64,000 bases of DNA. Source: Burkholderia sp. BCC0506 (GTDB taxonomy: Bacteria; Pseudomonadota; Gammaproteobacteria; Burkholderiales; Burkholderiaceae). The translations under genes and the position numbers were made by a program. Under the pieces are notes generated by a model. That model searched no databases. It had not been told where the DNA came from and worked only from the letters and a program-made list of their open reading frames with translations. Shown here piece by piece: positions 43,935 through 59,468 of the stretch (positions within the stretch are counted from its first letter, which is position 1; every line of letters begins with the position of its first letter). The stretch is from the NCBI RefSeq assembly GCF_902833145.1, contig NZ_CADFEN010000005.1, forward strand, positions 248,001 to 312,000, in the 5' to 3' direction.

Positions 43935-45527
43935 GTGCTTTCTACTGCCAACATCACGATGCAATTCGGGCCGAAGCCCTTGTTCGAGAATATCTCGGTC
44001 AAATTCGGCGAGGGCAACCGCTACGGTCTGATCGGCGCGAACGGCTGTGGCAAGTCGACCTTCATGAAGATCCTCGGCGGCGACCTCGAGCCGAGCGCCG
44101 GCAACGTCGCGCTGGAGCCGAACGTGCGCCTGGGCAAGTTGCGCCAGGACCAGTTCGCGTACGAAGACGTGCGCGTGCTCGACGTCGTGATGATGGGCCA
44201 CACCGAGATGTGGGCCGCGATGACCGAGCGTGACGCGATCTACGCGAACCCGGAAGCGACCGACGACGACTACATGCACGCGGCCGAGCTCGAAGGCAAG
44301 TTCGCCGAATACGGCGGCTACGACGCCGAGGCGCGCGCGGGCGCGCTGCTGCTGGGCATCGGCATCGAGGAGAAGTTCCACAACGGCACGATGGCCGACG
44401 TCGCGCCGGGCTGGAAGCTGCGCGTGCTGCTCGCGCAGGCGCTGTTCTCGAAGCCGGACGTGCTGCTGCTCGACGAACCGACCAACAACCTCGACATCAA
44501 CTCGATCCGTTGGCTCGAGCACACGCTCAACGAGTACAACTCGACGATGATCATCATCTCGCACGATCGTCACTTCCTGAACTCGGTGTGCACGCACATG
44601 GCCGACATGGACTTCGGCACGCTGAAGGTCTGGCCGGGCAACTACGACGACTACATGCTCGCATCGGCACAGGCGCGCGAGCGCCAGGCCGCGGCGAACG
44701 CGCGGGCGAAGGAGCGCGTGGCCGAACTGCAGGACTTCGTGCGCCGCTTCTCGGCGAACAAGTCGAAGGCGCGTCAGGCCACCAGCCGCGCGAAGCAGAT
44801 CGACAAGATCAAGATCGAGGAATTCAAGCCGTCGTCGCGCCAGAACCCGTTCATCCGCTTCGAATTCGAGAAGAAGCTGCACAACGTCGCGGTGGTCGCC
44901 GAAGAGATCACGAAGAAGTACGAGCGCACGATCTTCCAGAACTTCAACCTGTCGGTGCAGCCGGGCGAGCGCATCGCGATCATCGGCGAGAACGGCGCGG
45001 GCAAGACGACGCTGCTGCGCGCGCTGCTCGGCAACCTGCCGCTCGATCACGGCACGGTGAAGTGGGCCGAGAACGCGAATGTCGGCTACATGCCGCAGGA
45101 CACGTACGAGGAGTTCCCGGACGACATCACGCTGATGGACTGGATCGACCAGTACCGCAAGGACGGCGACGACGAAACGATGGTGCGCGGCACGCTGGGC
45201 CGCCTGCTGTTCTCGTCGGACGACATCAAGAAGTCGGTGAAGGTGCTGTCGGGCGGCGAGAAGGGCCGCATGATCTGGGGCAAGCTGATGCTCGGCCGCC
45301 ACAACGTGCTGCTGATGGACGAGCCGACCAACCACATGGACATGGAGTCGATCGAGTCGCTGCAGATCGCGCTCGAGCAGTTCGAAGGCACGCTGATTTT
45401 CGTGTCGCACGACCGTGAGTTCGTGAGCGGGCTCGCGAACCGGATCATCGAAGTGCGCACGGACGGCACGCTGTTCGACTTCGGCGGGAATTACGAGGAG
45501 TTCCTGGCGAGCCAGGGGCAGGAGTAA
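43935..45527 (+). CDS. ABC-F translation factor, YbiT type
   Basis: This is a 530-residue soluble ABC-F ATPase, a family that acts on ribosomes. Two ABC domains are present. The first has Walker [10 protein letters not shown] and a degenerate signature ([17 protein letters not shown]), as in YbiT. The second has [25 protein letters not shown] and [11 protein letters not shown]. The inter-domain linker is charged. It starts with GTG at 43935. The last 126 bp are repeated at 59109–59234, which shows that the 3' end of this gene is the integration target of the downstream island and that the gene was kept intact by insertion. Confidence 0.94.
45402..45527 (+). repeat. Left island boundary (attL-like), 3' end of the ABC-F gene
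   Basis: These 126 bp, including the stop codon, recur at 59109–59234 with mismatches only at 45471 and 45476. They form the left direct repeat of the island. Confidence 0.9.
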
Positions 45528-45546
45528 AAATCTCCCGTTTGTTCCA

Positions 45547-45562
45547 AGACCACCGTTCATGT
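45547..45562 (+). repeat. Inner inverted repeat, left copy
   Basis: AGACCACCGTTCATGT lies 20 bp inside the left repeat. Its reverse complement, with one base deleted, is found at 59093–59107 just inside the right repeat. The pair could be integrase arm sites or element ends. Confidence 0.45.
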
Positions 45563-45599
45563 GTCCCGGATTGTCCCACGGAATTGTCCCGTTGGGACA
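45562..45599. repeat. Cluster of TGTCCC repeats inside the left boundary
   Basis: TGTCCC occurs at 45562, 45572 and 45585, and inverted (GGGACA) at 45594–45599. TGTCCCA at 45572–45578 and TGGGACA at 45593–45599 form an inverted repeat. Regularly spaced short repeats next to an att site are typical of integrase or excisionase binding sites. Confidence 0.45.
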
Positions 45600-45671
45600 G
45601 TCGACTTCCCGGGGACGCTTTCTTAGCGAGCGCACAGCGGAGCATGTAAGGGGCGCTTTGTGAACCCCGAA

Positions 45672-45705
45672 GCCCATATTGGCAGATTGCCGGTATGGGC
45701 TTTTT
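45672..45705 (+). terminator. Terminator inside the left end of the island
   Basis: A 13-bp stem (GCCCATATTGGCA / TGCCGGTATGGGC, two G·U pairs) with a 3-nt loop is followed by TTTTT. It may now end transcripts of the ABC-F gene. The rest of 45528–45812 has no supported gene. Confidence 0.8.
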
Positions 45706-45812
45706 CGTTTTGGGCGAAGTACTCTCTCGTCGGACACCCGCAGTTGGCTTCACCGGGAGGGCATGCGTGTTGGGGTGATCCTGATCGAGCGCAGGATTGC
45801 TGCATAGGTAAA

Positions 45813-45934
45813 TGAGCGGCCCCCAGTAAACAGTGCCATGATGTAAGCGAGTTTTCGGCGGACTTTTTCAGTATGAAAGGAGCCGTACGATGAAACGCAA
45901 GCGCTTCAGTGTCGAGCAGATTGTGCCGGGTTGA
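45813..45934 (+). mobile_element. IS3-family left-end remnant with start of orfA
   Basis: A short frame at 45890–45934 (after AAAGGAG) reads MKRKRFSVEQIV and then runs into a stop after two unrelated residues. That is the usual N-terminus of OrfA in IS407/IS511-like IS3 elements. The preceding TGAGCGGCCCCCAG at 45813 is likely the element's terminal end. The rest of the IS is deleted, and the break at about 45928 joins directly to the regulator below. Confidence 0.75.
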
Positions 45935-46323
45935 ACCGCGCCTACGTGAGCGGCATCGAGCGTGGATCGATCAATATTCGGCTCGACAACATAGGGAAAC
46001 TGGCGTCCGCACTTGAAGTCCATGCAGCGCGGTTCTTGGGTGTTGTAGACGGCGATAAGGTGTCGCCGGTTACTTGCGTTGACCTTCGGTCGGAGGTGAC
46101 GCGTCACGTCCGGGAGTTTCGGAAGTTTGCGGGAATTTCTCAGGAGCGGCTGGCCGAGGTCGCCGGATTTCATCGAACGTATGTGGGCAACGTGGAGCGT
46201 GGCATCGCCAATTTATCGCTTGATGATCTTGAGGCGCTTGCATCTGTGCTGAAGGTAGACCCGGCGCAACTTCTTGATGACGAAAGTGCCGTACCTGATG
46301 CGGGCAACGGCATTGATCCATAA
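45928..46323 (+). pseudogene. Xre-type two-HTH regulator, 5' truncated by the IS remnant
   Basis: About 130 residues remain. The first segment (LNRAYVSGIERGSINIRLDNIGKLASALEV) is only the recognition helix and C-terminal half of a Cro/C1-type HTH. The second HTH is complete (VREFRKFAGISQERLAEVAGFHRTYVGNVERG). Normal tandem-HTH proteins of this type begin with a full first domain, which here is replaced by transposase codons. A TTG at 45931 could still start translation, so a residual DNA-binding protein with one HTH is possible. It lies 593 bp upstream of cdiA and may once have regulated the island. Confidence 0.7.
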
Positions 46324-46915
46324 CGCGACAGACGTTGCGTAGCCGCAACGGCGCGCAAAATTCTTTTATACAGCAGGCAGTGCTTCGGTTCGAACGCTCA
46401 AAAATACATATTTTCTCGGCCCGATTTATACATTTTCAACGGTCGAATTTCGACACCATTATGGTCTATCTCGAAATGAGCGTTGCACGCCAGACCACGG
46501 GCGTCCGACGACGATCGCCCGCTGTATTCGCAGTTGGCACCGTGTCTAAAGCCCCCTCCAGCCTATCTCGATAAAATAACATCTTGCCTAGAATTGACAT
46601 TTCGAAACATTTATAAAAATTTGAATTCTTGAATATTCTTGCGGATATCTCGCCGCTTGAGAGGCGAAAATCGGACTTCGTGCGTCGTCTTGATCATTTC
46701 TGACAGTGTGCGGTGGATAGTCTCTGCTACGATCGCGCGGTGGATGGGAGGGGGCCAATTGAACGCTTCGGTGCGCGCAATCGCGGCATGCATGAGAGGT
46801 ATGTCGTTCTGCCCGTCCTTTGCAAGCGCGTTCAGACCAGACGACGAATTGCGTTCGGTCCTATCGACGCTGAGTTCAAACAAGATTGCAGGGGCGCGGT
46901 CGCGTCAAACGAAGA
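46324..46915 (+). promoter_or_regulatory. AT-rich cdiA upstream region
   Basis: These 592 bp are among the most AT-rich in the window. A 7-bp hairpin (CGTTGCG / CGCAACG, 46333–46350) lies just after the regulator. A consensus −35 TTGACA at 46594–46599 is followed by TTATAAAAAT at 46611–46620, with sub-optimal spacing for a −10. Small frames on the minus strand (46611–46883) do not look coding. This region most probably holds the promoter of the cdiA-I-B operon. Confidence 0.5.
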
Positions 46916-49900
46916 ATGAACAAGAATTGCTACCGAGTTGTATTCAATCGCGCGCGCGGCGCGATGATGGTCGTTCAGGAAAACGGAAGTGCACAGCGTG
47001 CGGCTGGATGTGCGGAAGAGGCGACGGTATCGGTCGAATCACCGGGATTTCGTACTGTATGGCAACCGATCGCGATGGCTGCTGCATTGCTGTTCGGCGT
47101 GCCGCTGCTGAGCATGGCGCAGATCGTACCGACGCCGGGTACGTCAACGCACATCATCCAGACACAGAACGGCTTGCCGCAAGTGAATATTGCCGCCCCT
47201 TCGGGGGCTGGTGTGTCGGTGAATACGTACAACCAGTTCGATGTACAGAAAAACGGCGCAATTCTCAATAATTCACCGACGCTGGTGAACACACAGCAGG
47301 CTGGCTACATCAACGGCAACCCGAATTTCGGCCCGAACCAGTCTGCGCGAATTATCGTCAATCAGGTCAACAGCAATGCGCCGTCTCAACTCCGCGGTTA
47401 TGTTGAGGTCGGAGGAAATCGCGCCGAAGTAATCTTGTCGAACAGCGCCGGTATTCAGGTTGACGGCGGCGGATTTATTAATACGTCCAGAGCCACATTG
47501 ACAACTGGCACACCGTATTACGGCGCTGATGGATCACTTGCCGGATTCAATGTATCACGCGGTCTGATTTCGGTAAATGGCGCTGGCCTTAACGCATCGA
47601 ATGTCGATCAGGTTGATTTGATTTCTCGCGCAGTACAGGCCAATGCAGCGATTTATGCAAAGAATCTGAACGTCATCGCCGGGGCAAACCAGGTCAATCA
47701 CGACACACTTGCTGCAACGCCGATTGCCGGTGACGGTGCTGCGCCTGCCATTGCGATCGACGTGGCCCAATTAGGCGGTATGTACGCTAATCGCGTCTTT
47801 CTCGTGAGCAACGAGTTCGGGGTAGGTGTTTCGAACGCCGGAACGATCGCTGCGCAAGCGGGCGATCTGACGCTGCAATCGAACGGCCAACTCGTACTCA
47901 CAGGCAAGACTACGGCGGGCGGTAATCTTACCGCAACCGCGAACAGTATTCAAAATTCCGGCACGACGTATGCGCAACAGAGCGCAAACGTTTCAGCAGC
48001 CGGTACGTTGTCGAACAGCGGCACGCTCGCTGCGCAACAGAATACGACGATCAACGCGGGCACCGTCAATTCGACCGGAACGCTCGGCGCGGGCGCAAAT
48101 AACGATGGTTCTGTCGGAAAAAGCGGCGACCTGAATCTGTCGAGCACAGGCCAACTGACGGCGACTGGGCAAAACGTCGCGGGTGGGAGCGCGTCGATTT
48201 CGGGCAGCGGCGTCAATCTTGCTGGTAGCCAGACGGCTGCAAACGGCAACCTGTCGCTGAACACAAATGCAGGCGACCTGAACCTTTCGAACGCGACAAC
48301 GAGTGCGCAAGGTGCCGTCAATGCCAGTGCGACAGGTGCTCTGATCAATGATCATGGCACACTGTCGAGCCAAGGCAACACAACGTTGACCGCAGGCAGC
48401 ATTTCGAACCAAGGTGGCAAGGTATCGGCGCAAGGTCCGTTGAGTGTACAGTCGAACGGCGCAATCGCAAATCAGGGCGGCACGCTGGTATCGGAAAATT
48501 CGATGCAGGTGCACGGCGGTGTGATCGCGAACAACCAAGGCATGATGCAAAGTGCGGCTGGAATGACGATTACCGGCACGTCCGTGGACAACAGCGCCGG
48601 TCGCGTTACGTCGCTGAATTCGGACGGCCTGTCCATTACAACGACGGGCCAACTGACGAACGCAGCCGGGACGACCGCACTCGGCGCACAAGGCGGTGTC
48701 ATCGGCGGCAACGGCGACGTGGCGATTCAATCGGGCAGCGTCGTGAACCACGGCACGGTCAGTGCGCAAACGAATCTGAACGTCGGCACGCAAACACTCG
48801 ACAACAGCAGCGGTTCGTTGTCGGCTGCACAAAACGCAGTGATCAATGCGGGGGCGCAGTTGACGAACGGTTCGGGCAGCATTACGGCCGGACAATCCGC
48901 GACTGTGAATGCCGCGTCGTTGAGCAATGATGCGGGTTCGGTGCAGGCAGCACAGTTGTCGCTCGGGGCGACGAATTTGTCGAACCACGGCGGCTCGATT
49001 ACACAAACCGGGACCGGCGCAATGAATGTTGCCGTCTCGAATACGCTCGATAATTCGAGCAACGGCGTTATTCAGACCAACAGCACGGACCTGAACCTGA
49101 CGCCCGCGACGCTGATCAACGACCACGGAAAAATTACTCACGCAGGCAGCGGTACGTTGTCGATCGCAACCGGTGCGATGTCGAACCAAGGCGGCACGAT
49201 CGCGACCAATGGCGCGTTGAGCGTGAAGGCGGCTGCTGTTTCGAACAGTGCCGGTACGCTGGCCGCGCAGCGACAAGCGGCGCTCGATGTGCAATCGCTC
49301 GATAATCATGCGGGCGGCTACGTCGGTGCGGACAGTATTACGCTGAAGGCTCAAGGCGCTGTCGATAACCGTGTGGGCACGCTCGAAGCGAACAACGGCG
49401 TTTCCGTGACGGCCGACAGTCTCGCGAATGATGGAGGTTCGCTTAAAAACGTGGGCACGAACGCGCTGTCGGTCACGACGACGAATGCGTTGACCAACAC
49501 CGCGAACGGCACGATCGGCGGCAACGGTGATGTATCGGTGACGGCGGGCAGTGTCGATAATTCGAACGGGTCGCTGCTGGCGGCGCAATCGCTGTCTGTG
49601 CAGTCGAACGGTCAGATTGCTAATGCCGCTGGTCTTGTTCAGTCGAACGGCAATCTGTCGCTTCGCGCGCAAGGTGCCGTGGTCAATAGCGCGGGGCAAA
49701 TTGAAGCGAACGGCGCAACATCCACGCTCGCCGTCTCGGGTTCCAGCGTCGATAACAGCAACGGCCGTATCGCGAATATCGGCAGCGGTGCAACGACGAT
49801 CGACGGCGGCGCGTCGATCACGAACACGAACGCGTCCGGCAAAACGGGGGCGGGCACAATCGGCGGTAATGGCGATGTTACGCTGACCGCGCACACGCTC

Positions 49901-52900
49901 ACGAATGCTCAAGGTGGTCAGACGCTTGCAGGTCACGATCTGACGCTGAATGTCACAAACAGCGTAAATAATTCCAGCGGTGTGCTGTCAGCTGCGAACA
50001 ACCTCAAGTTGAGCGCGGCAAACGGAGCGCTGTCGAATCAGGCCGGGTCGATTCGTGCAAACGGCGCGCTGTCGCTGAACACCGCATCAATCGACAACAC
50101 GTCCGGCAAAATCGGTAACGACGCAGGTAGCGGCGGCAGTATTTCAATCCAGACCGGCACGCTTGCCAACCAGGATGGCGCCATCGGGAGCGATCAGGAC
50201 CTGTCGTTGAACGCAGCCGCGTTGACGGGCGACGGTTCGATCGTAGCAGGCCGAAACGGTGCTGTGACACTCGGTAGCGACTACACGCAGACTACGGCGA
50301 ACAAGTTGCACGCAAACGGCGACCTCACGTTTTCCACGTCAGGCAAGCTGACGAACCAAGGCGTGCTGGATGCCAATGGCGCGCTGACCGTGAATGCGGC
50401 GAACGTGGAGAACCAAGCAGGCGCTGATCTGAATTCGGCAAACACGACGGTCAATGCGAACGGTGGCACGATCGATAACGCAGGTCGCATCGAAGGTGAT
50501 GCAGTCACGACCAACAGTGCGACGCTGAACAATACGGGCACCGTGATCGGTGCCAACGTCACTGCGAATGCCAATACGATCACGAACACTGGAGCCGCCG
50601 CCGTATTCGCCGCTGCTAATCAGTTGAATCTGTACGCGACGAATCAGTTGTCGAACACGGACGGTGCGAATCTGTTCAGCGTTGGCGATATCAATATCGC
50701 AGCGAATAGTCAGCGCGACGTTAACGGCTTGCTCGCGAACCGTACACAAAACGTGCTGAACGATCAATCGACGATCGAAGCGCAGGGCAATGTCGAACTT
50801 GCGGCAGGCACATTCACCAATACGCGCCCCGCACCGACAGTCACAACCGAAACGACGAGCACGACGACGAAGCACGAAACAAAACGCGACAAATACATTG
50901 CATGTGCCACGACGAACGCTGACTCGCACTCGTCCTGTACGCAGGCCGTCTGGGACTACGGCTACAAAACGGCACGTAACGATAGCTTCAGTCGCGCGCA
51001 AATCGTATCGGAAACGACGGGTTCGAACGCTACCGATCGCGTGCTGGTGCTGAACGTCAACGGCCAGCAGAAGACGATCTATTACAACACGCTGACGGAC
51101 AACGGCAACGGTACGATCACGGTCAACTATTGGGATGCGTACGATCCGCACGTGAATTACGTGCCGGACTCGGAATATGCAACGCGCAGCGACGCCCATA
51201 AAGGCTATCAGCGTGTCGAGATCTGGCGCGATACGACTTCGACGATTCAGCAAGATAAGGTGACCAGTCAGGCGCCGCAAGCGCAACTCGTGGCCGGTGG
51301 CAGTATCACGATGGCGAACGTCGGAACGATCAACAACAACTACAGCGCGATCACGGCTGGCAAGTCGATTCAGATCGGCAGCACGCAGCAAAACGGCTCG
51401 GTCGGCAGCGGAAGTTATGGCGGTACGACGGTCAACAATACCGGCCAGACGTTGTATCAGTATCAGCGTGACGACATCGTGTCGATGTATGCGTGGAACG
51501 AGGACCCGACGCGCGATCGCGGCACGATTGTTGAACCGTCTATCGTCTATACGCCGGTCGCGATTGGTGGAACGGGCGGCACAATCATCGCGAACCAATC
51601 GGTGTCGATTAACGCGCAGAATGTCAATAACCAGAACGTCGCTGCGCAAAATTCCTCGACCGGTGCCACGGGCGGTACGCTCGGCAACAATGCGGCCAAT
51701 CAGGGGGTATCGGGCAGCAATCCGTCCAAGGTCGGTGCGGCGAGCGGAACGACGAATGTCCCTGCACTGCAATCGGTCGCGAGCGCAACCGGTGATTTGT
51801 CGATCACGTTGCCGACAAGCGGGATGTACTCGATTCATCCCGCGCCTGGCCAGCCGTATCTGATCGTCACAGATCCGCGCCTGACGAGCTATACGAACTT
51901 CATTTCGAGCGACTACATGCTCGGCCAGTTGAACCTGAACCCGGCGAGCATCGAAAAGCGCTTGGGTGACGGGATGTACGAACAGCAGATGGTGCGCAAC
52001 CAGATTACGCAGTTGACCGGTCGCACCTTCCTGCCGGGTTACGCGAGCGCCGAGGATGAATATCGTGCGCTGATGACGAACGGTGCGAACTACGCGAAAT
52101 CGTTCGGCTTGGTGCCCGGCATGGCGCTGACGGCTGCGCAAATGGACGCGCTGACGAGCGACATTGTATGGTTGGTTGATCAGACCGTGACTTTGCCCGA
52201 CGGCAGCTCGACGCATGTGCTGGCTCCTGTTGTCTATATGGCGCAGACACACGCGAACGACCTGCAACCGACCGGTGCATTGATCGCTGCGGACGACGTT
52301 GAAATTCATGCGACGGGTAGCGCGACGAATTCCGGTGTGATCAAGGGCGGCACGAAAACCGTGCTGACGGCGACGGATATTTTGAATCGTGGCGGTACGA
52401 TTTCGAGCAGCGGTAAGAACGGCACAACGGTCGTTTCGGCGAGCAACGATGTGGTCAACGCGTCCGGTCAAATTACCGGCAATCGGGTCGCCGTGCTGGC
52501 AGGTCGCGATATCGTCAACACGACGCTGTTTGATGCCGTGGGCGCAACTGGCGCATCCGGTGCAAGCAAGGTCAGCACGAGTCTGATCGGCCAGCAAGGC
52601 ACGATCGCGGCAACGGGTGACCTGTCCGTTCAGGCCGCGCGCGATCTGAGCATTCACGGCGCGAATTTGTCGGCGGGCGGCGACGCATTGGTGGCGGCAG
52701 GTCGGGATATCAACGTCGATACGGTCCAGTCCACGACGAACCAATCGATGTATCTGAACGATCAGCATCATTGGGAAGAGTCCACGACGAAGAACGTGAC
52801 GAGCGGCATCACCGCCGGCGGAAGCTTGGGGATGCAAAGCGGCAACGACATGACGCTGAAGGGCGCGACCGTATCGGCCGGAAAAGACCTGTCTGCGCTT

Positions 52901-55900
52901 GCAGGCGGGAATTTGACGGCAACGACAGTCACGGAAACCGCGAAGCTCGACAATGTGGCGGCGGACAGCAAGACGCGTAAGGAAGTTGATCACAACTACG
53001 ACGAGCACGCTGTTGGCACGCAATTCACGGCAGGCGGCAATGCGACGCTCGCGGCAGCAAGTACCGATGCGTCGAAGGGCAACGTCATGCTCACAGGTTC
53101 GTCGCTCACGGCAGGTATGACGAACGGCGTCGAAAACGGTACGGGAGCGGCAAACATTGGTGCGACGGGCAACGTCTCGATCAACGAGGCTCGCGAGGAA
53201 CACGACAAGTACCAGTCGGTGCAGGTCCAACGTGGCAGCTTCGTCAGCAGCACGAAAACCGATTCGATGCAGAACACGCAGGCGAATGTCGGCGTCGGCA
53301 GCACGGTATCTGGTAATACGGTCAACATTCAGTCGGGCCACGATTTGACTGTTCAGGGCAGCACGATCGTGGGCACGAACGATGTCAGTCTTGGGGCAGC
53401 AAACAACGTCAATATCACCACGTCCAAGGATACGGTCACGCAGGACGGCTACTATCACGAAACGCATTCGGGGATTGGTACCAGCGGCTTGAGCGTGAGT
53501 ATTGGCACGCAGAAAAAGACTGACACGGATCATGCTTCGTCCGTCACGAACAACGCGAGCACGATTGGTTCGCTTAACGGCAACCTGACCGTCAAGGCTG
53601 GCGATACGCTGCACGTGACGGGTAGCGACTTAATCGCCGGGAAGAATTTGACCGGCGTAGCGTCGAATGTTGTGATCGATTCGGCAACCGATACCAGCAA
53701 CAAGAGCCATAGCGAGACGACCAGTAGCAGTGGCGTCACGCTCGGCTTGTCGGGCAGCATCGGCGATGCGATCAACGGTGCGTATCAACAGGCGCAGGCG
53801 GCAAAGAGTGGTGCCGGTGACAGTCGTGCGACAGCCCTGCACGCGATTGCAGCGGCGGGTAATGCAGCGATGGGTGTAGCCGGTCTGACGGGCGGTGCGC
53901 TTGCGGGCGGCGGCACGCCGAGCATCGGCGTTCAAGTCAGCGTTGGATCGAGTCATAGCCGACTCGATACGTCGGAAAGCCAAACGACGCAACGCGGATC
54001 GAGCGTCAGCGCTGGCGGTACCACATCGCTGATTGCGACGGGTAACGGCACACCAGGTAGCGGTAATATCACGGTGGCCGGTTCGAACGTGTCTGGCAAC
54101 GATGTGCTGCTGGCTGCGAAGAACCAGATCGACCTGCAAAACACGACGAACACTGATTCGACGCGCAGCTCGAATTCGTCGTCGAGCGCCAGCGTCGGCG
54201 TGTCGATCGGCACGAACGGTATCGGAGTGTCTGCCGCCATGTCGCGCGCACACGGCGACGGCAACAGTGATGCCGCAATGCAGAACAATTCGCACGTGAC
54301 CGGCGCGAATAGCGTGAAGCTTGTTAGCGGTGGCGATACGAATGTGATCGGCTCGACTGTATCCGGTCGCACTGTTACGGCGGACGTGGGCGGCAATCTG
54401 AACATGCGCAGCGTGCAGGATACGACTGTCAGCAGCGCGCATCAAAGTAGTGCGGGCGGCGGCATCAGCGTCAGTACGATGGGTGGTAGCGCCAGCTTCA
54501 GTTCGTCGCACGGAAACGCGAACGGCAATTACGCGGGCGTGAGCGAACAGGCCGGGATTCAGGCGGGCGAAGGCGGGTTCAACGTGAACGTCAAGGGCAA
54601 TACCGACCTGACGGGCGCGGTGATTGCCAGCACAGCCGATCCGTCGAAAAACTCGCTGACGACCGGCACGCTGACCTATCGCGATATCGAGAACCATTCG
54701 ACGTACAGCGCGGATAGCAGCGGCTTTAGCGCGGGTGTTGGCGTCGGCGTAACCGGCAAGGCAATCGGGCCGGGATCGGTTAGCGGCTCGGGTGGCGTAA
54801 CACCGATGATTTCGCAATCGGATAGCGGTAGCGAGAACGCGACCACACGAAGCGGCGTGAGCGCAGGCACGATCAACATCACGAATCCAACCGGCCAGAC
54901 GCAGGACTTGGCGAACCTGAATCGCGATACGTCGAACCTGAACGGAACAGTATCGAAAACGCCGGACGTACAGAATCTGCTGGACAAGCAATCTGACCTG
55001 ATGAACGCAGGGCAGGCCGCTGGTCAGGTTGTTGCGCAAGGCATCGGCGCTTACGCGGATATGAAGCACGCGGAAGCCCAACATGCGGCCGATGCGGCCA
55101 AGCTGGCAGGCGACACTACGGCACAGGCTACATATCAGGCAGAGGCCGATTCGTGGGCGGAAGGTGGTACGAACCGAGTGCTGATGCATACCACCGGTGG
55201 CGCATTCCTTGCTGGATTGGGCGGTGGTAATGCCCTTGCCGGTGCAGCGGGTGCCGGATTGTCGTCGGCGCTGGCCGGTAAGCTGAATAGTCTTGCAGAC
55301 GCGGTTGGCGGCAGTACAGATTCGATGCTGGCAGGCAACGTGTTGTCGAACGTGTTGGCTGGTGCCGGTGGCGCGTTGATCGGTGGTACATCGGGTGCGT
55401 TCACAGCAACGAATGCCGACTTGTATAACCGTGATCAAACCAATGCAAACGGTACAGGAGGCACGGGGAGTGAATTTCTTGACAAGGGATGGAACTACGC
55501 CAAGCAGTTTGGCAATGCAGCATTGGATCTTGTCCCCGGTCACAAGATGGCAGACCAAGCGCAGACTGCATTTTCCAACGGCAATGTGGGCATGGGGGTA
55601 GCGCTTGCCGTTGGTTCGATTGGCGACGCGGCACTAGGTGTTTTGACCATTGGTGAAGGTAAGGCTATTGAAAACGCCACAAGCAAGGTAATTGAAAAAG
55701 TTGCTTCGAAGGCCCCGGCTTTCTCCGGTTCCGGTCCTGTATCCGGTGTGATTGCTATCACCGATGACACTTCAGTTGCCGCTCTTAAGAATTACTATCC
55801 GTCTAAGGGAAGTATCGAGTTTGTGTTTGACCCGACCACGAATACATTTGCTGTTGGAAAACCAGCATCAGGATTGTTTGACGGTTCTGCGCATCAGCAA

Positions 55901-56101
55901 TTGGCGCAGGCCATCGGTGCAAATGATGCAAATGTGGTTGGAGGGGGATTTAGTCGAGCCGCAGACGGATCGATTCTTACGACAGAAAACAGCGGACACT
56001 ACGGCCAGAATTGGACGCCTGAAATTTGGAATCAATTCCAGCAATGGCTGTCCAAACGAGTCGGGGTTCCGGTGAATCATACTCCTTGGGGAAGCAAATG
56101 A
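46916..56101 (+). CDS. cdiA: CDI exoprotein toxin (CdiA/BcpA, FhaB-like)
   Basis: This is a giant two-partner-secretion exoprotein of ~3061 residues. An extended signal peptide (ESPR, MNKNCYRVVFNRARGAMMVV) ends near SMA-68. The TPS secretion domain follows to about residue 300, with SNSAGIQVDGGGFINTSRATLTTG. Long haemagglutinin repeats come next (IGGNGDV recurs at ~48711, 49510 and 49855), then a pretoxin region. The delimiter NADLYN is at residues 2833–2838. The last ~223 residues are the variable toxin tip, whose end contains SAHQQLAQAI, GGGFSR and SGHYGQNW. This resembles a polymorphic-toxin domain (possibly Ntox43; uncertain). Toxin tips are delivered into neighbouring cells on contact. 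The ATG at 46916 gives the ESPR start. Confidence 0.95.
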   Translation: MNKNCYRVVFNRARGAMMVVQENGSAQRAAGCAEEATVSVESPGFRTVWQPIAMAAALLFGVPLLSMAQIVPTPGTSTHIIQTQNGLPQVNIAAPSGAGVSVNTYNQFDVQKNGAILNNSPTLVNTQQAGYINGNPNFGPNQSARIIVNQVNSNAPSQLRGYVEVGGNRAEVILSNSAGIQVDGGGFINTSRATLTTGTPYYGADGSLAGFNVSRGLISVNGAGLNASNVDQVDLISRAVQANAAIYAKNLNVIAGANQVNHDTLAATPIAGDGAAPAIAIDVAQLGGMYANRVFLVSNEFGVGVSNAGTIAAQAGDLTLQSNGQLVLTGKTTAGGNLTATANSIQNSGTTYAQQSANVSAAGTLSNSGTLAAQQNTTINAGTVNSTGTLGAGANNDGSVGKSGDLNLSSTGQLTATGQNVAGGSASISGSGVNLAGSQTAANGNLSLNTNAGDLNLSNATTSAQGAVNASATGALINDHGTLSSQGNTTLTAGSISNQGGKVSAQGPLSVQSNGAIANQGGTLVSENSMQVHGGVIANNQGMMQSAAGMTITGTSVDNSAGRVTSLNSDGLSITTTGQLTNAAGTTALGAQGGVIGGNGDVAIQSGSVVNHGTVSAQTNLNVGTQTLDNSSGSLSAAQNAVINAGAQLTNGSGSITAGQSATVNAASLSNDAGSVQAAQLSLGATNLSNHGGSITQTGTGAMNVAVSNTLDNSSNGVIQTNSTDLNLTPATLINDHGKITHAGSGTLSIATGAMSNQGGTIATNGALSVKAAAVSNSAGTLAAQRQAALDVQSLDNHAGGYVGADSITLKAQGAVDNRVGTLEANNGVSVTADSLANDGGSLKNVGTNALSVTTTNALTNTANGTIGGNGDVSVTAGSVDNSNGSLLAAQSLSVQSNGQIANAAGLVQSNGNLSLRAQGAVVNSAGQIEANGATSTLAVSGSSVDNSNGRIANIGSGATTIDGGASITNTNASGKTGAGTIGGNGDVTLTAHTLTNAQGGQTLAGHDLTLNVTNSVNNSSGVLSAANNLKLSAANGALSNQAGSIRANGALSLNTASIDNTSGKIGNDAGSGGSISIQTGTLANQDGAIGSDQDLSLNAAALTGDGSIVAGRNGAVTLGSDYTQTTANKLHANGDLTFSTSGKLTNQGVLDANGALTVNAANVENQAGADLNSANTTVNANGGTIDNAGRIEGDAVTTNSATLNNTGTVIGANVTANANTITNTGAAAVFAAANQLNLYATNQLSNTDGANLFSVGDINIAANSQRDVNGLLANRTQNVLNDQSTIEAQGNVELAAGTFTNTRPAPTVTTETTSTTTKHETKRDKYIACATTNADSHSSCTQAVWDYGYKTARNDSFSRAQIVSETTGSNATDRVLVLNVNGQQKTIYYNTLTDNGNGTITVNYWDAYDPHVNYVPDSEYATRSDAHKGYQRVEIWRDTTSTIQQDKVTSQAPQAQLVAGGSITMANVGTINNNYSAITAGKSIQIGSTQQNGSVGSGSYGGTTVNNTGQTLYQYQRDDIVSMYAWNEDPTRDRGTIVEPSIVYTPVAIGGTGGTIIANQSVSINAQNVNNQNVAAQNSSTGATGGTLGNNAANQGVSGSNPSKVGAASGTTNVPALQSVASATGDLSITLPTSGMYSIHPAPGQPYLIVTDPRLTSYTNFISSDYMLGQLNLNPASIEKRLGDGMYEQQMVRNQITQLTGRTFLPGYASAEDEYRALMTNGANYAKSFGLVPGMALTAAQMDALTSDIVWLVDQTVTLPDGSSTHVLAPVVYMAQTHANDLQPTGALIAADDVEIHATGSATNSGVIKGGTKTVLTATDILNRGGTISSSGKNGTTVVSASNDVVNASGQITGNRVAVLAGRDIVNTTLFDAVGATGASGASKVSTSLIGQQGTIAATGDLSVQAARDLSIHGANLSAGGDALVAAGRDINVDTVQSTTNQSMYLNDQHHWEESTTKNVTSGITAGGSLGMQSGNDMTLKGATVSAGKDLSALAGGNLTATTVTETAKLDNVAADSKTRKEVDHNYDEHAVGTQFTAGGNATLAAASTDASKGNVMLTGSSLTAGMTNGVENGTGAANIGATGNVSINEAREEHDKYQSVQVQRGSFVSSTKTDSMQNTQANVGVGSTVSGNTVNIQSGHDLTVQGSTIVGTNDVSLGAANNVNITTSKDTVTQDGYYHETHSGIGTSGLSVSIGTQKKTDTDHASSVTNNASTIGSLNGNLTVKAGDTLHVTGSDLIAGKNLTGVASNVVIDSATDTSNKSHSETTSSSGVTLGLSGSIGDAINGAYQQAQAAKSGAGDSRATALHAIAAAGNAAMGVAGLTGGALAGGGTPSIGVQVSVGSSHSRLDTSESQTTQRGSSVSAGGTTSLIATGNGTPGSGNITVAGSNVSGNDVLLAAKNQIDLQNTTNTDSTRSSNSSSSASVGVSIGTNGIGVSAAMSRAHGDGNSDAAMQNNSHVTGANSVKLVSGGDTNVIGSTVSGRTVTADVGGNLNMRSVQDTTVSSAHQSSAGGGISVSTMGGSASFSSSHGNANGNYAGVSEQAGIQAGEGGFNVNVKGNTDLTGAVIASTADPSKNSLTTGTLTYRDIENHSTYSADSSGFSAGVGVGVTGKAIGPGSVSGSGGVTPMISQSDSGSENATTRSGVSAGTINITNPTGQTQDLANLNRDTSNLNGTVSKTPDVQNLLDKQSDLMNAGQAAGQVVAQGIGAYADMKHAEAQHAADAAKLAGDTTAQATYQAEADSWAEGGTNRVLMHTTGGAFLAGLGGGNALAGAAGAGLSSALAGKLNSLADAVGGSTDSMLAGNVLSNVLAGAGGALIGGTSGAFTATNADLYNRDQTNANGTGGTGSEFLDKGWNYAKQFGNAALDLVPGHKMADQAQTAFSNGNVGMGVALAVGSIGDAALGVLTIGEGKAIENATSKVIEKVASKAPAFSGSGPVSGVIAITDDTSVAALKNYYPSKGSIEFVFDPTTNTFAVGKPASGLFDGSAHQQLAQAIGANDANVVGGGFSRAADGSILTTENSGHYGQNWTPEIWNQFQQWLSKRVGVPVNHTPWGSK

Positions 56102-56550
56102 AAGCCGAATTCGTGCCAAGTCCGATTGTCAAGGAAAACGCAATTTGGGTTGTTAGTGTAGGAAAGGTGTTCGTTGGTGTTGATTCGATTGGCACTTGGA
56201 GCATCGATTTAAATGGAAATGTGCGCGCGGTTAAATCGCCAGAGGATACGATGCCGTTGCTTCCAATTCTCGAATTGGATCGAGAGAATTTCTTTGATGG
56301 CCTTAAGCGCATTGCGCGAGAGTTTCCTGATTTCGAAAATCAAGTTGCCTCGTTTCCTGAAAATCTTTTGATAGAATTTGCACTTGATTCGTCAGTCTCG
56401 GAATATTGGCCATCCAAGGCATTGAACTGGATTGAAGGTGCGCCTGCATTGGTCTCGTTTTTTTCTCCACTGATGAAAAGCGTAATTGATAGAAGGTGGG
56501 CGACTCAGTCTATCAAGCAGAGAATTAAGCGACTTATAAAAGTCATTTGA
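56098..56550 (+). CDS. cdiI: CDI immunity protein (CdiI/BcpI), divergent
   Basis: This 150-residue protein starts at an ATG overlapping the cdiA stop by 4 bp (ATGA). In CDI loci that position is always the cognate immunity gene, which protects siblings by binding the toxin tip. No known domain is recognised. The sequence is beta-rich at the N-terminus (IWVVSVGKVFVGVDSIGTWSIDLNG) and has a hydrophobic, aromatic C-terminal half. The gene is clearly AT-richer than cdiB, consistent with exchange as a toxin–immunity cassette. The assignment rests on context. Confidence 0.85.
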   Translation: MKAEFVPSPIVKENAIWVVSVGKVFVGVDSIGTWSIDLNGNVRAVKSPEDTMPLLPILELDRENFFDGLKRIAREFPDFENQVASFPENLLIEFALDSSVSEYWPSKALNWIEGAPALVSFFSPLMKSVIDRRWATQSIKQRIKRLIKVI

Positions 56551-56574
56551 TTGCGGTTAAATTTAACAATAACG

Positions 56575-58335
56575 ATGAACATCTTTCATCGCCTGACGGT
56601 TTTGCCAATTGCAGCCCTCGTATCGTTCGGGGTTCATGCTGAACAGGCTCCGACGCTTGCCGACCAAGCCGCCGCCGCGCGTGCGAATGCAGAACAAGAT
56701 CGGCAGGCACAGCAGCAACGCGACGCGCAGCAGCGTGCCGCCGAAGTGCGTGCCCCTTCGGTGCGTTCGGAAGTGCCGCACGTCGAGGCGTATCCGGCAA
56801 TTCCGACCGAAACGCCGTGCTTCCGCATTGATCGTTTCATGGTCAACGTTCCCGACGCGTTGCCGGATGGCTTGAAAGCTCAGGGCGCATCTGCGTTGCC
56901 GATGGATCGCTTCGCTTTCGCGCGTGAATGGCTTGAACACTACACGGGGCAGTGTGTTGGCAAGCAAGGGCTTGATGTTCTCGTCAAAGCGTTGTCGCAA
57001 GACATTTTGTCGCGCGGCTACATCACGACGCGCGTGTTGCTGCCCGAACAGGATTTGTCGTCTGGTACGCTGAAGGTCTCATTGATTCCGGGCGTGATCC
57101 GCCACGTGCGTTTCGCCGATGAAAAACTGCGCGGCACATGGAAAACTGCGTTTCCGACACGCGACGGCGAACTGTTGAACCTGCGCGACCTTGAGCAGGG
57201 TCTGGAGCAGATGAAGCGCGTACAGAGCCAAGACGTGTCGATGCAGATCGTTCCGGCCGATGTGCCGGGCGAGAGCGATGTCGTGCTCAATGTGAAGCGT
57301 GGCAAGCCGTGGACAGTCGTTGCATCGATTGACAACTCGGGCACGCGCGCGACCGGGAAGCTACAGGGCAACCTGTCGATCGGTATCGATAACCCGCTCG
57401 GGCTAAACGACATCTTCAATGTCGGCGTGAGCCAAGACCTTGAACTTGGTGACAAGCGCCTTGGTTCGCACGGCTGGAACGGCTTCTACTCGATCCCGTG
57501 GGGTTACTGGACCGCGACGTTATCGGCCTACACGAACACGTACTACCAGCAAATCGCTGGCGTGAATCAAACATTCGTTGCAAGCGGCAATTCGAAGACG
57601 ATCGATTTCAAGCTTGCCCGAGTGCTTGCCCGTAGCCAGAACGACGTATTCGGCGGCTATGTCCGTTTGTCCCGTCGCTTCGGTCAGAGCTTCATCGAAG
57701 ATACGGAAATCTCGCAACAGCGGCGCAACAATACATTCGTTGAATTCGGCCTGACCGACCGTCACTACTTCGATGGGGCGCAGTTCGACGGCACGCTGGC
57801 GTACCGACAGGGCGTCGGGGGCTTGGGTGCGCAGGACGACATTCTTGCTGCCGGTGGTGGTCCGACTTACCGCTTCAAGATGGCGGTACTCGACGCAAAC
57901 CTGTCGGTGCCGTTTGCGATCGCGAAGCAGCCGTTCCGATACGTGACGAGCATCCACGGCCAATATACCGGGAACTCGCTGTACTACATCGATGACTTGA
58001 CGATCGGCAGTCGTTACACGGTACGGGGTTTTGACGGCGAAACGATGCTGGCGGCGGCGCGCGGCTTCTACTGGCGCAACGAACTGCAGATGCCGATCGG
58101 ACAGACCGGACAGGCGATTTATGCAGGATTGGATTACGGCCGTGTTTGGGGGCCGCAGCCGGTTGCGTTGGTCGGTACGCAGTTGGCCGGGGCGGTAATT
58201 GGCATCAAAGGCAGCGTAGCGACACCTTTCGGCGGCTACGGCTATGACCTGTTCGCCGGTACGCCGGTCTACAAGCCGTCCGGATTCCCGACTGCGCGTG
58301 TGACGGTCGGGTTTCAGGTAACCGCGCAGTTCTAA
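56575..58335 (+). CDS. cdiB: CDI outer-membrane transporter (CdiB/BcpB, TpsB family)
   Basis: This is a 586-residue Omp85-superfamily secretion pore for the CdiA partner. A signal peptide (MNIFHRLTVLPIAALVSFGVHA, 22 aa) is followed by a Gln/Ala-rich helix typical of the TpsB plug. A POTRA region follows (CFRIDRFMVNVP, DVLVKALSQDILSRGYITTRV), then a 16-strand barrel. The barrel contains the Omp85 VRGF motif at residues ~483–486 (TVRGFDGE) and a C-terminal aromatic (TAQF). The ATG at 56575 is preferred over a TTG at 56551. The order A-I-B without an intervening lipoprotein gene departs from the usual Burkholderia bcpAIOB order. Confidence 0.94.
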   Translation: MNIFHRLTVLPIAALVSFGVHAEQAPTLADQAAAARANAEQDRQAQQQRDAQQRAAEVRAPSVRSEVPHVEAYPAIPTETPCFRIDRFMVNVPDALPDGLKAQGASALPMDRFAFAREWLEHYTGQCVGKQGLDVLVKALSQDILSRGYITTRVLLPEQDLSSGTLKVSLIPGVIRHVRFADEKLRGTWKTAFPTRDGELLNLRDLEQGLEQMKRVQSQDVSMQIVPADVPGESDVVLNVKRGKPWTVVASIDNSGTRATGKLQGNLSIGIDNPLGLNDIFNVGVSQDLELGDKRLGSHGWNGFYSIPWGYWTATLSAYTNTYYQQIAGVNQTFVASGNSKTIDFKLARVLARSQNDVFGGYVRLSRRFGQSFIEDTEISQQRRNNTFVEFGLTDRHYFDGAQFDGTLAYRQGVGGLGAQDDILAAGGGPTYRFKMAVLDANLSVPFAIAKQPFRYVTSIHGQYTGNSLYYIDDLTIGSRYTVRGFDGETMLAAARGFYWRNELQMPIGQTGQAIYAGLDYGRVWGPQPVALVGTQLAGAVIGIKGSVATPFGGYGYDLFAGTPVYKPSGFPTARVTVGFQVTAQF

Positions 58336-58347
58336 GGAAATTCGAGG

Positions 58348-58611
58348 ATGCAGAGTCGGGCGCGTGCACGAATCAAAGATTCGAAATCGTCGGCTAGTCG
58401 GGAGGTCGATGAGACGGCGTTGCGTCAGAGCCGCCGTGCATTTGAACAGGCGCTACGCGACCACGTGCACGCCTTGCTGTCGCCGGACGCAGACCCTGTT
58501 CCGTCGTGCCCGCGCTGCAAAGGAACGGCAATCGACAAAAAGGGATATACACATCGGTACACGGGACGGCTCCGGCCATCAACCTTACGTCGCGAGGCAG
58601 CGGTAGCTTAG
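58348..58611 (+). pseudogene. Truncated zinc-ribbon (DUF746/transposase-like) ORF
   Basis: This is an 87-codon frame starting 12 bp after cdiB. It has a helical, basic N-terminus and a zinc-ribbon half-site SCPRCKGTAIDKKGYTHRYTG near residues 52–72. The partner cysteines that should follow are missing. From about codon 75 the residues no longer look native, because the DNA there is the antisense of the integrase fragment. Such zinc-ribbon N-termini occur in DUF746 proteins and some transposases. It is read as a remnant, and the exact family is uncertain. Confidence 0.55.
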
Positions 58612-59065
58612 GGCGGCGAAAGCCGCGAACAGGGTTGACCGTGATGCCCATGTTCCACTCGTCTATCGCGGTTCGGTAGGCGGCTGAAATTGCGTCAAGT
58701 TCACGACCTACGGAACTACCAAGAACTTCTGTTATGCGCCGGTCGCGCCATTCGGTGAGATGAGATTTGTTTAGCTCGGCAGCCGGGATGGAACAGAGTT
58801 TCCTTTCCCTTTTGAGCAGGCGTTGCAAAGTTCGCCGGTCCCATTCGCTCGACCGCTTGTCGGGCATTGGGTGCGCTATGTACTTCCGGAATAGGTCCCC
58901 GACAGTTGGACCAGTCTCGACAGATTTGATCGTATCGCCGTGCTCGTGCTCTTCAGCCCAACGCTTAGCGGCTTCCTCGCTGACGAAGGTTGCGGACAGG
59001 CTCGGCTGCCCCTTACGGCGGATTTTGACCTGCCATTTTGTCCCACGCAGGGTGATTGTTGCCAT
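58394..59065 (-). pseudogene. Tyrosine integrase, C-terminally truncated
   Basis: About 165 residues of a phage-type integrase are recognisable. The arm-binding N-terminus is MATITLRGTKWQVKIRRKGQPSLSATF, and a SAM-like core-binding domain follows (TVGDLFRKYIAHPMPDK, NKSHLTEWRDRRI, SAAYRTAIDEWNMGITVNPVRGFRRPK). The catalytic R…HxxR…Y domain is absent, because native sequence stops near 58575 and the rest of the frame is antisense to the zinc-ribbon fragment. The start codon is 44 bp from the right repeat, the normal place for an island integrase. The element can no longer excise by itself. Confidence 0.88.
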
Positions 59066-59092
59066 TCATGCTCTCCAAGTGGTTGATTAGGA

Positions 59093-59107
59093 ACATGAAC
59101 GGGGTCT
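59093..59107 (-). repeat. Inner inverted repeat, right copy
   Basis: The reverse complement (AGACCCCGTTCATGT) matches 45547–45562 except for one missing A. It abuts the right direct repeat. Confidence 0.45.
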
Positions 59108-59108
59108 G

Positions 59109-59234
59109 GTGTCGCACGACCGTGAGTTCGTGAGCGGGCTCGCGAACCGGATCATCGAAGTGCGCACGGACGGCACGTTGTTAGACTTCGGCGGGAATTA
59201 CGAGGAGTTCCTGGCGAGCCAGGGGCAGGAGTAA
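59109..59234 (+). repeat. Right island boundary (attR-like), duplicate of the ABC-F 3' end
   Basis: This is a copy of 45402–45527 with T at 59178 and A at 59183 instead of C and C, so two of its codons read T-L-L-D rather than T-L-F-D. It includes the stop codon and has no start. It is likely the displaced original end of the gene. Confidence 0.9.
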
Positions 59235-59310
59235 GTGTCCTGAGGATTTCTCCGGCTGTGGGTCCAGGTTAGGCATCACTGCACGAAGCGAACCGCCACG
59301 GGCGCTACAG

Positions 59311-59345
59311 GCCCGCATCGACAGCAATGTCGATGCGGGCTTTTT
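59311..59345 (+). terminator. Strong terminator, originally of the ABC-F gene
   Basis: A perfect 13-bp stem (GCCCGCATCGACA / TGTCGATGCGGGC) with a GCAA tetraloop is followed by TTTTT. Nothing upstream needs it except the duplicated gene end, so it most probably terminated the ABC-F gene before the island inserted. Confidence 0.93.
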
Positions 59346-59468
59346 CATATTCGTAGCGAAAAACCCGCCCGCGCCGCACGTCCCGGTCTCCTCTGCGTAA
59401 TCGACTTCAGGTAAATTACCCACCCAACACCCCCATCATTCCCTCATTTCACTCCGGAGTCGCCCTCG

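Follow-up and report, generated by a model that had tools for sequence, protein, structure and literature searches.

The 64,000-nucleotide stretch of the Burkholderia sp. BCC0506 genome analysed here (the window; contig NZ_CADFEN010000005.1, positions 248,001 to 312,000) contains a 13.7-kb contact-dependent growth inhibition (CDI) island, which is bounded by direct repeats and located at the 3' end of a YbiT-type ABC-F ATPase gene. Comparison with other genomes makes it very probable that this gene end is the bacterial attachment site (attB) of a subfamily of tyrosine integrases, and that the tail copy carried by the incoming element rebuilds the gene. The gene end appears to be a repeatedly used insertion site for different mobile elements, with its reading frame staying whole. 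It adds a further case to an already known class of insertion hot spots.

The ABC-F gene (43935-45527, plus strand) is intact up to its stop codon. Its product matches Pfam ABC_tran and ABC_tran_Xtn and exhibits two ABC domains with the ABC-F linker. It scores 1000 bits against NF011646/PRK15064 (cut-off 762), which we take to be E. coli YbiT, and falls under the EttA and Uup cut-offs. The left repeat (45402-45527, plus strand, attL side) consists of the last 41 codons of the gene plus the TAA stop, and opens with the first position of the V490 codon in the VSHDR motif. The right repeat (59109-59234, plus strand, attR side) is a headless copy of the same gene end. The two copies are 126 nt long, 98% identical with two mismatches, and spaced 13,707 nt apart. 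When the best 40 of 104 first-look candidates in the 7.29-Mb genome were scored, the repeat was found in these two places, which confirms the original prediction of a 126-bp direct repeat with two mismatches at the coding end of the ABC-F gene.

The island differs from its surroundings in composition, with a G+C content of ~0.51-0.60 in 1-kb steps versus mostly 0.62-0.73 in the flanks. No tRNA or tmRNA gene was found in the window. Directly behind the ABC-F stop lies the element end (the arm; 45528-45600, plus strand), a region of repeated TTGTCCC-like words. Other genomes with an occupied site have similar sequence at the corresponding position. The island also includes a terminator-like hairpin (45669-45703, plus strand; fold z = -5.1), which is now located 3' of the ABC-F stop. 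Beyond the right repeat, the host flank (59235-59468, plus strand) contains a terminator-like hairpin of its own at 59309-59342.

Empty and occupied sites in the genus

We scanned 65 genomes of the genus for the ABC-F gene end and fetched up to 20 kb for 63 others than the window genome; L073, L081, L091 and L094 gave only 2.0 to 10.8 kb of downstream sequence, and in a few genomes the site is partly lost to short contigs. Where both locus (L) and genome (G) labels are used, L044 lies in G038, L035 in G064, L043 and L128 in G010, and L086 in G022; in other genera, L129 lies in G160 (Paraburkholderia ginsengisoli), L131 in G125 and L132 in G181. The window genome is G000. The gene end was found in 64 of the 65 genomes, the fragmented G057 giving weak matches only, and the ABC-F frame is open across its last 256 codons in all 64, occupied sites included.

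By a shared backbone, defined as the first 250 bp after the ABC-F stop being common to at least seven other genomes, the site looks empty in 33 of 64 genomes. In four empty genomes (L033, L034, L038 and L039), the right flank of the window island begins at base 1 after the ABC-F stop. Island-free relatives had been predicted to carry GTGTCCTGAGG directly after the stop, and this is the case in L034, L038 and L039, with a near match in L033. In 14 of the 64 genomes, a second copy of that genome's gene end follows further downstream, and three of these copies are weak (L041, 81% over 105 bp; L061, 81% over 79 bp; L080, 90% over 49 bp). The remaining 17 are unclassified; some have arm-like sequence without a second copy, some lineage-specific DNA and some short contigs.

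As a control, three other 126-bp segments of the same ABC-F gene were searched for in each of the 64 genomes, and none of these 192 tests gave a second copy. This control bears on a rival explanation, in which the gene end was duplicated in tandem or the repeat is an artefact of assembly. Nothing apart from the two copies themselves speaks for it, and it is refuted by the recurrence of the same layout with different inserts across genomes and genera, by the integrase at the border and by the empty sites; we consider it extremely improbable. Genomes that have the repeats and no CDI genes do not carry bare repeats either, and have other DNA of 1.0 to 18.5 kb between the two copies.

An integrase subfamily linked to the gene end

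Full-length integrases with PF00589 are located at the right repeat in L035, L049 and L071. The candidate active-site residues R, K, HxxR, H and Y, which we take as the tyrosine-recombinase active-site motif, are among the invariant columns of seven relatives. A search of 398 genomes of the family with the L071 protein returned nine places at 68-100% identity, with the next best match at 46%. When the gene end was sought within 1.5 kb on each side, it was found to adjoin the integrase in all nine close relatives, which represent three genus groups, versus none of 21 more distant loci.

The same linkage is seen in a scan of integrase loci from named genomes, in which 80 of 151 were kept. The six closest proteins (66-81%), from Paraburkholderia ginsengisoli, P. 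monticola, P. aspalathi, Burkholderia sp. WSM2230, Burkholderiaceae bacterium 16 and Cupriavidus basilensis OR16, are accompanied by an ABC-F end, and the other 74 (50% or less, some of them on short contigs) are not. These six loci are on the same contigs as six of the nine, so the two sets overlap. The complete arrangement of whole gene, island and second copy is present in G160, G125, G181 and G376; in G300 and G384 the contig has no whole ABC-F gene.

The integrase of the window island is broken. Its ATG lies at 59065 on the minus strand, 44 bp into the island from the right copy, exactly where the original prediction had placed it, but the 223-residue open reading frame that follows (58394-59065, minus strand) is N-terminal only and has lost the catalytic half. 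The match to integrases covers residues 1-165, ending at about 58571; the remainder is unrelated, and the frame contains no Pfam domain and no catalytic domain. A search of the island for the missing part gave chance-level matches only (E 0.24 or worse). Among the best 5 of 24 candidates scored in the window genome, one match to this integrase reached E <= 1e-40, namely the truncated protein itself. Since its integrase has lost the catalytic half, the island is probably fixed in place, stranded and unable to move by its own enzyme. Behind cdiB, a frame with a cysteine pair (58347-58600) reaches the integrase break; it is possibly a fragment whose arrival removed the end of the integrase gene.

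Proposed insertion mechanism and position of the crossover

We propose that the attachment site of the element (attP) would include a duplicate of the last part of the gene, beginning at the VSHDR (H-loop) codons and ending with the stop, and that the crossover would most likely occur at or near the start of this copied block, in the H-loop DNA. On insertion, presumably catalyzed by this integrase, the host gene would receive the element's version of its last ~41 codons with the frame staying open, and the original gene end, now headless, would come to lie at the opposite border next to the integrase gene. In tRNA genes, the element copy likewise rebuilds the gene end on insertion.

The homologous block starts 125-128 bp before the gene end in 11 of 15 pairs, and L043, where blastn aligns the full 126 bp, makes a twelfth. 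The exceptions are L069, where the block starts at 117 bp, and L044 and L072, where the left parts of the right copies are missing. In the pairs compared, the block ends at the stop codon. Such a block, running from a fixed start to the stop, would be expected if it were maintained for rebuilding the end of the coding sequence.

Once rebuilt, the gene end would again be a complete target, so that a further element could insert before the resident one. One genome, G064, shows such a stacked order: the gene end is followed by a 12.1-kb element with a complete integrase, a second gene end, a window-type arm, CDI genes and the host backbone. It seems that the older element had rebuilt the gene end and that the newer one then inserted there.

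Several observations weigh against this mechanism. Under it, the right copy should be the original host end, barring later decay, yet in five of ten informative pairs it is the left copy that agrees better with the eight nearest empty relatives. Counted over the positions that distinguish the two copies, the left-to-right votes in these pairs are 16:0 in the window, 34:2 in L043, 31:7 in L044, 7:1 in L050 and 92:41 in L071. The other five pairs are near even or favour the right copy (L042, 55:56; L049, 0:2; L052, 13:16; L069, 9:15; L072, 4:11). Whether the site is empty or occupied, the tail is the most variable 126-bp segment of the gene, and its agreement with the phylogeny is about that of other segments. 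Of the 11 clear genus islands, only 3 contain a full-length integrase of this family; the enzyme is truncated in L042 and the window, reduced to a remnant in L043 and L069, and was not found in L044, L050, L052 and L072. In G064, the search for a third repeat past the CDI genes gave none. No excised or circular form is visible in assemblies; excision and transfer of the elements are presumed.

The split votes bear on an alternative in which the crossover takes place at the stop-codon end, leaving the ABC-F gene unaltered and making the right copy element DNA. The five pairs with a more host-like left copy fit this arrangement. Against it, there would then be little reason for coding identity to persist over 120 bp, or for the block to have a common left border and to end exactly at the stop codon. 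Several of the left-copy votes can also be explained by decay of the headless right copy, and the left copy is not favoured in the remaining five pairs. We regard a stop-end crossover as unlikely. The base comparison is split five to five, and it is the shape of the repeat that suggests a crossover close to where the block begins. For L071, the two nearest relatives have changes in common with the right copy and the left copy resembles other members of the genus, yet the votes of the eight relatives given above favour the left copy.

We also considered whether foreign versions have often replaced the ABC-F tail across the genus. No footprint of such exchange was found and the idea is unsupported, as occupied sites show no excess divergence (p = 0.81).

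Cargo of the islands and presence of CDI genes

The clear islands of the genus number 11 (the window, L035, L042, L043, L044, L049, L050, L052, L069, L071 and L072), 10 of which are at least 2.9 kb long. Different cargo between the same kind of repeats had been predicted for other strains and is what we observe. Conflict-related genes, sought by scanning chosen open reading frames, occur in 7 of the 10 islands of at least 2.9 kb, a count that refers to this site alone. CDI genes are present in the window and in L044, where CdiA ends in a Colicin-DNase/WHH domain and is accompanied by a SUKH immunity gene. L042 contains a weak pre-toxin VENN fragment, L043 RebB R-body genes, L069 the PtuA and PtuB genes of Septu, and L071 a Drt8-like reverse transcriptase with an AAA ATPase. 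In L050, VgrG and a Tli4-type immunity gene flank a 642-residue open reading frame, which is likely an effector. Among the scanned frames of the first element of L035, of L049 and of L052, no conflict genes were found.

CDI genes inside this site or stacked on it were seen only in G000, G038 and G064. In G010, they lie beside it: the R-body island occupies the space between the repeats, and the CDI genes follow the second copy and a terminator-like stretch, outside the repeats, with no third repeat found beyond them. A cdiB match at E <= 1e-100 is present in 46 of 65 genus genomes, mostly at other sites, and this census rejects the idea of CDI as the main cargo of the site, which is one address among many for CDI. 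The original prediction of a hot spot that delivers competition systems holds for the repeated use and the varied cargo; CDI is mostly found elsewhere, and its delivery here by an integrase is presumptive.

The CDI genes may have entered an older integrase island later, by homologous recombination or through insertion sequences, without being delivered by the integrase. The truncation of the integrase in the window, the lack of a relative of it in the L044 CDI island, the position of the CDI genes in G010 and the location of most cdiB matches elsewhere in the genus are all consistent with late entry. Against it stands the order of arm and cdiA common to the window, G038 and G064, together with a 149-bp stretch of the arm region (45572-45720) that matches, at 91%, the sequence upstream of the CDI genes in G064. 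The order shared by these three genomes suggests that, in them at least, the arm moves together with the CDI genes. We give late entry an appreciable but limited probability, and arrival of the CDI genes on an integrase-borne element would agree with the shared arm.

Two further observations concern CDI genes near the site. In G022 (L086), a relic of a cdiB C-terminus lies 340-525 bp after the ABC-F stop (71-column alignment, 61%) and is likely the trace of a lost CDI island at this site. In G010, the stretch that precedes the CDI genes, immediately behind the second gene end and at a distance of about 18.5 kb from the ABC-F stop, resembles the start of a group II intron.

The elements of G064, G125 and G181 contain two adjoining tyrosine integrases within about 11-13 kb. 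They also encode a 708-841-residue relative of podovirus internal virion (core) proteins, phrog_3883 (L035:8048-10570, L131:13308-15638 and L132:13100-15223), and the G125 protein is 43.8% identical to a protein of Burkholderia phage Paku. These elements look like phage satellites or reduced prophages, and those seen outside the genus have a phage-like appearance. The G160 element has a weak match to a major head protein (L129:8440-9480, phrog_10), and the G181 element encodes a ParA-like protein (L132:5790-6668).

Relation to known insertion sites

Islands at the ends of tRNA and tmRNA genes have the same layout, in which a repeat runs from inside the gene to its end, an integrase lies beside one repeat and the gene is rebuilt. 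The site described here differs in that the target is protein-coding and the repeat starts in the codons of a catalytic motif. The original prediction had held protein-coding targets to be rarer than tRNA genes. This view does not stand, since 43.4% of the islands in the TIGER/Islander set are in protein-coding genes, a figure that according to its authors includes some false positives, versus 33.8% in tRNA/tmRNA genes (PMC12424338). Tandem arrays of islands are also mentioned there (PMC12424338).

The nearest known case, judged by the pattern of target and cargo, is the dusA-associated integrase family. These islands likewise combine one integrase family, one protein-coding target, highly varied cargo and a coding end supplied by the element (Farrugia et al. 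2015, PMC4482086). They use the 5' end of a tRNA-modification gene, in contrast to the 3' end of an ABC-F gene here (PMC4482086). Among titles and the beginnings of abstracts, we found no published description of an ABC-F or ybiT gene as an integration site, the TIGER target list being outside this search; a word search in PMC12884075 and PMC10111431 returned no mention of ybiT.

A wider scenario can be put forward tentatively. In Burkholderia, Paraburkholderia and Cupriavidus, a dedicated integrase subfamily might use the 3' end of the ABC-F gene as a dock for stacking, with ancestral carriers that were ~10-13 kb long and phage-satellite-like. In Burkholderia, the address could then have become a store of conflict systems (CDI, type VI secretion system effectors, R-bodies, Septu, DRT8-like), each arrival exchanging the tail of a ribosome-associated ATPase. 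The site pinpoints where competition and anti-phage genes can be found in genomes of the genus, is tied to an integrase subfamily whose target can be predicted in three genus groups, and allows its empty, occupied and stacked states to be compared as they occur naturally. It also illustrates that a conserved translation-related gene can be a landing site without loss of its frame.

The CDI locus of the window

By domain content and gene order, the genes of the window island form a CDI-type locus, for which growth inhibition and immunity are predicted functions. The cdiA-type two-partner exoprotein gene (46916-56101, plus strand; ATG start at 46916) encodes ESPR, TPS, haemagglutinin repeats and an Ntox43-like C-terminus, as identified by Pfam in the open reading frame from 46886. 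The C-terminus thus differs from that of the L044 CdiA. The probable cdiI immunity gene (56098-56550, plus strand) is assigned by its position and its ATGA overlap with the cdiA stop; its product has no NCBIfam match and no PHROG match below E 0.1. The cdiB-type outer-membrane transporter gene (56575-58335, plus strand) starts at 56575 and contains POTRA_2, POTRA_3 and ShlB (Pfam, open reading frame from 56551). A gene common to L044 and the window behind cdiB, and since lost, was sought and gave no match.

The gene order is A-I-B rather than the A-I-O-B of bcpAIOB, as only 24 bases separate the end of the cdiI open reading frame (56550) from the cdiB ATG (56575). In another bacterial order, Proteus mirabilis BL95 reportedly carries CDI on an integrative and conjugative element, to go by the title of PMC11278526. 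The bcpAIOB composite transposon of B. thailandensis E264 likewise places CDI genes on a Burkholderia mobile element; it is ~210 kb long and bounded by IS2-like sequences, and the word "integrase" is absent from the main text of its description (PMC6350997).

Upstream of cdiA, at 45868-46323, the start of a short open reading frame resembles, by eye, an insertion-sequence transposase and continues into a frame for a helix-turn-helix regulator. A second cdiB, with 78% identity, is located elsewhere in the window genome (G000:C2:401324-402952).

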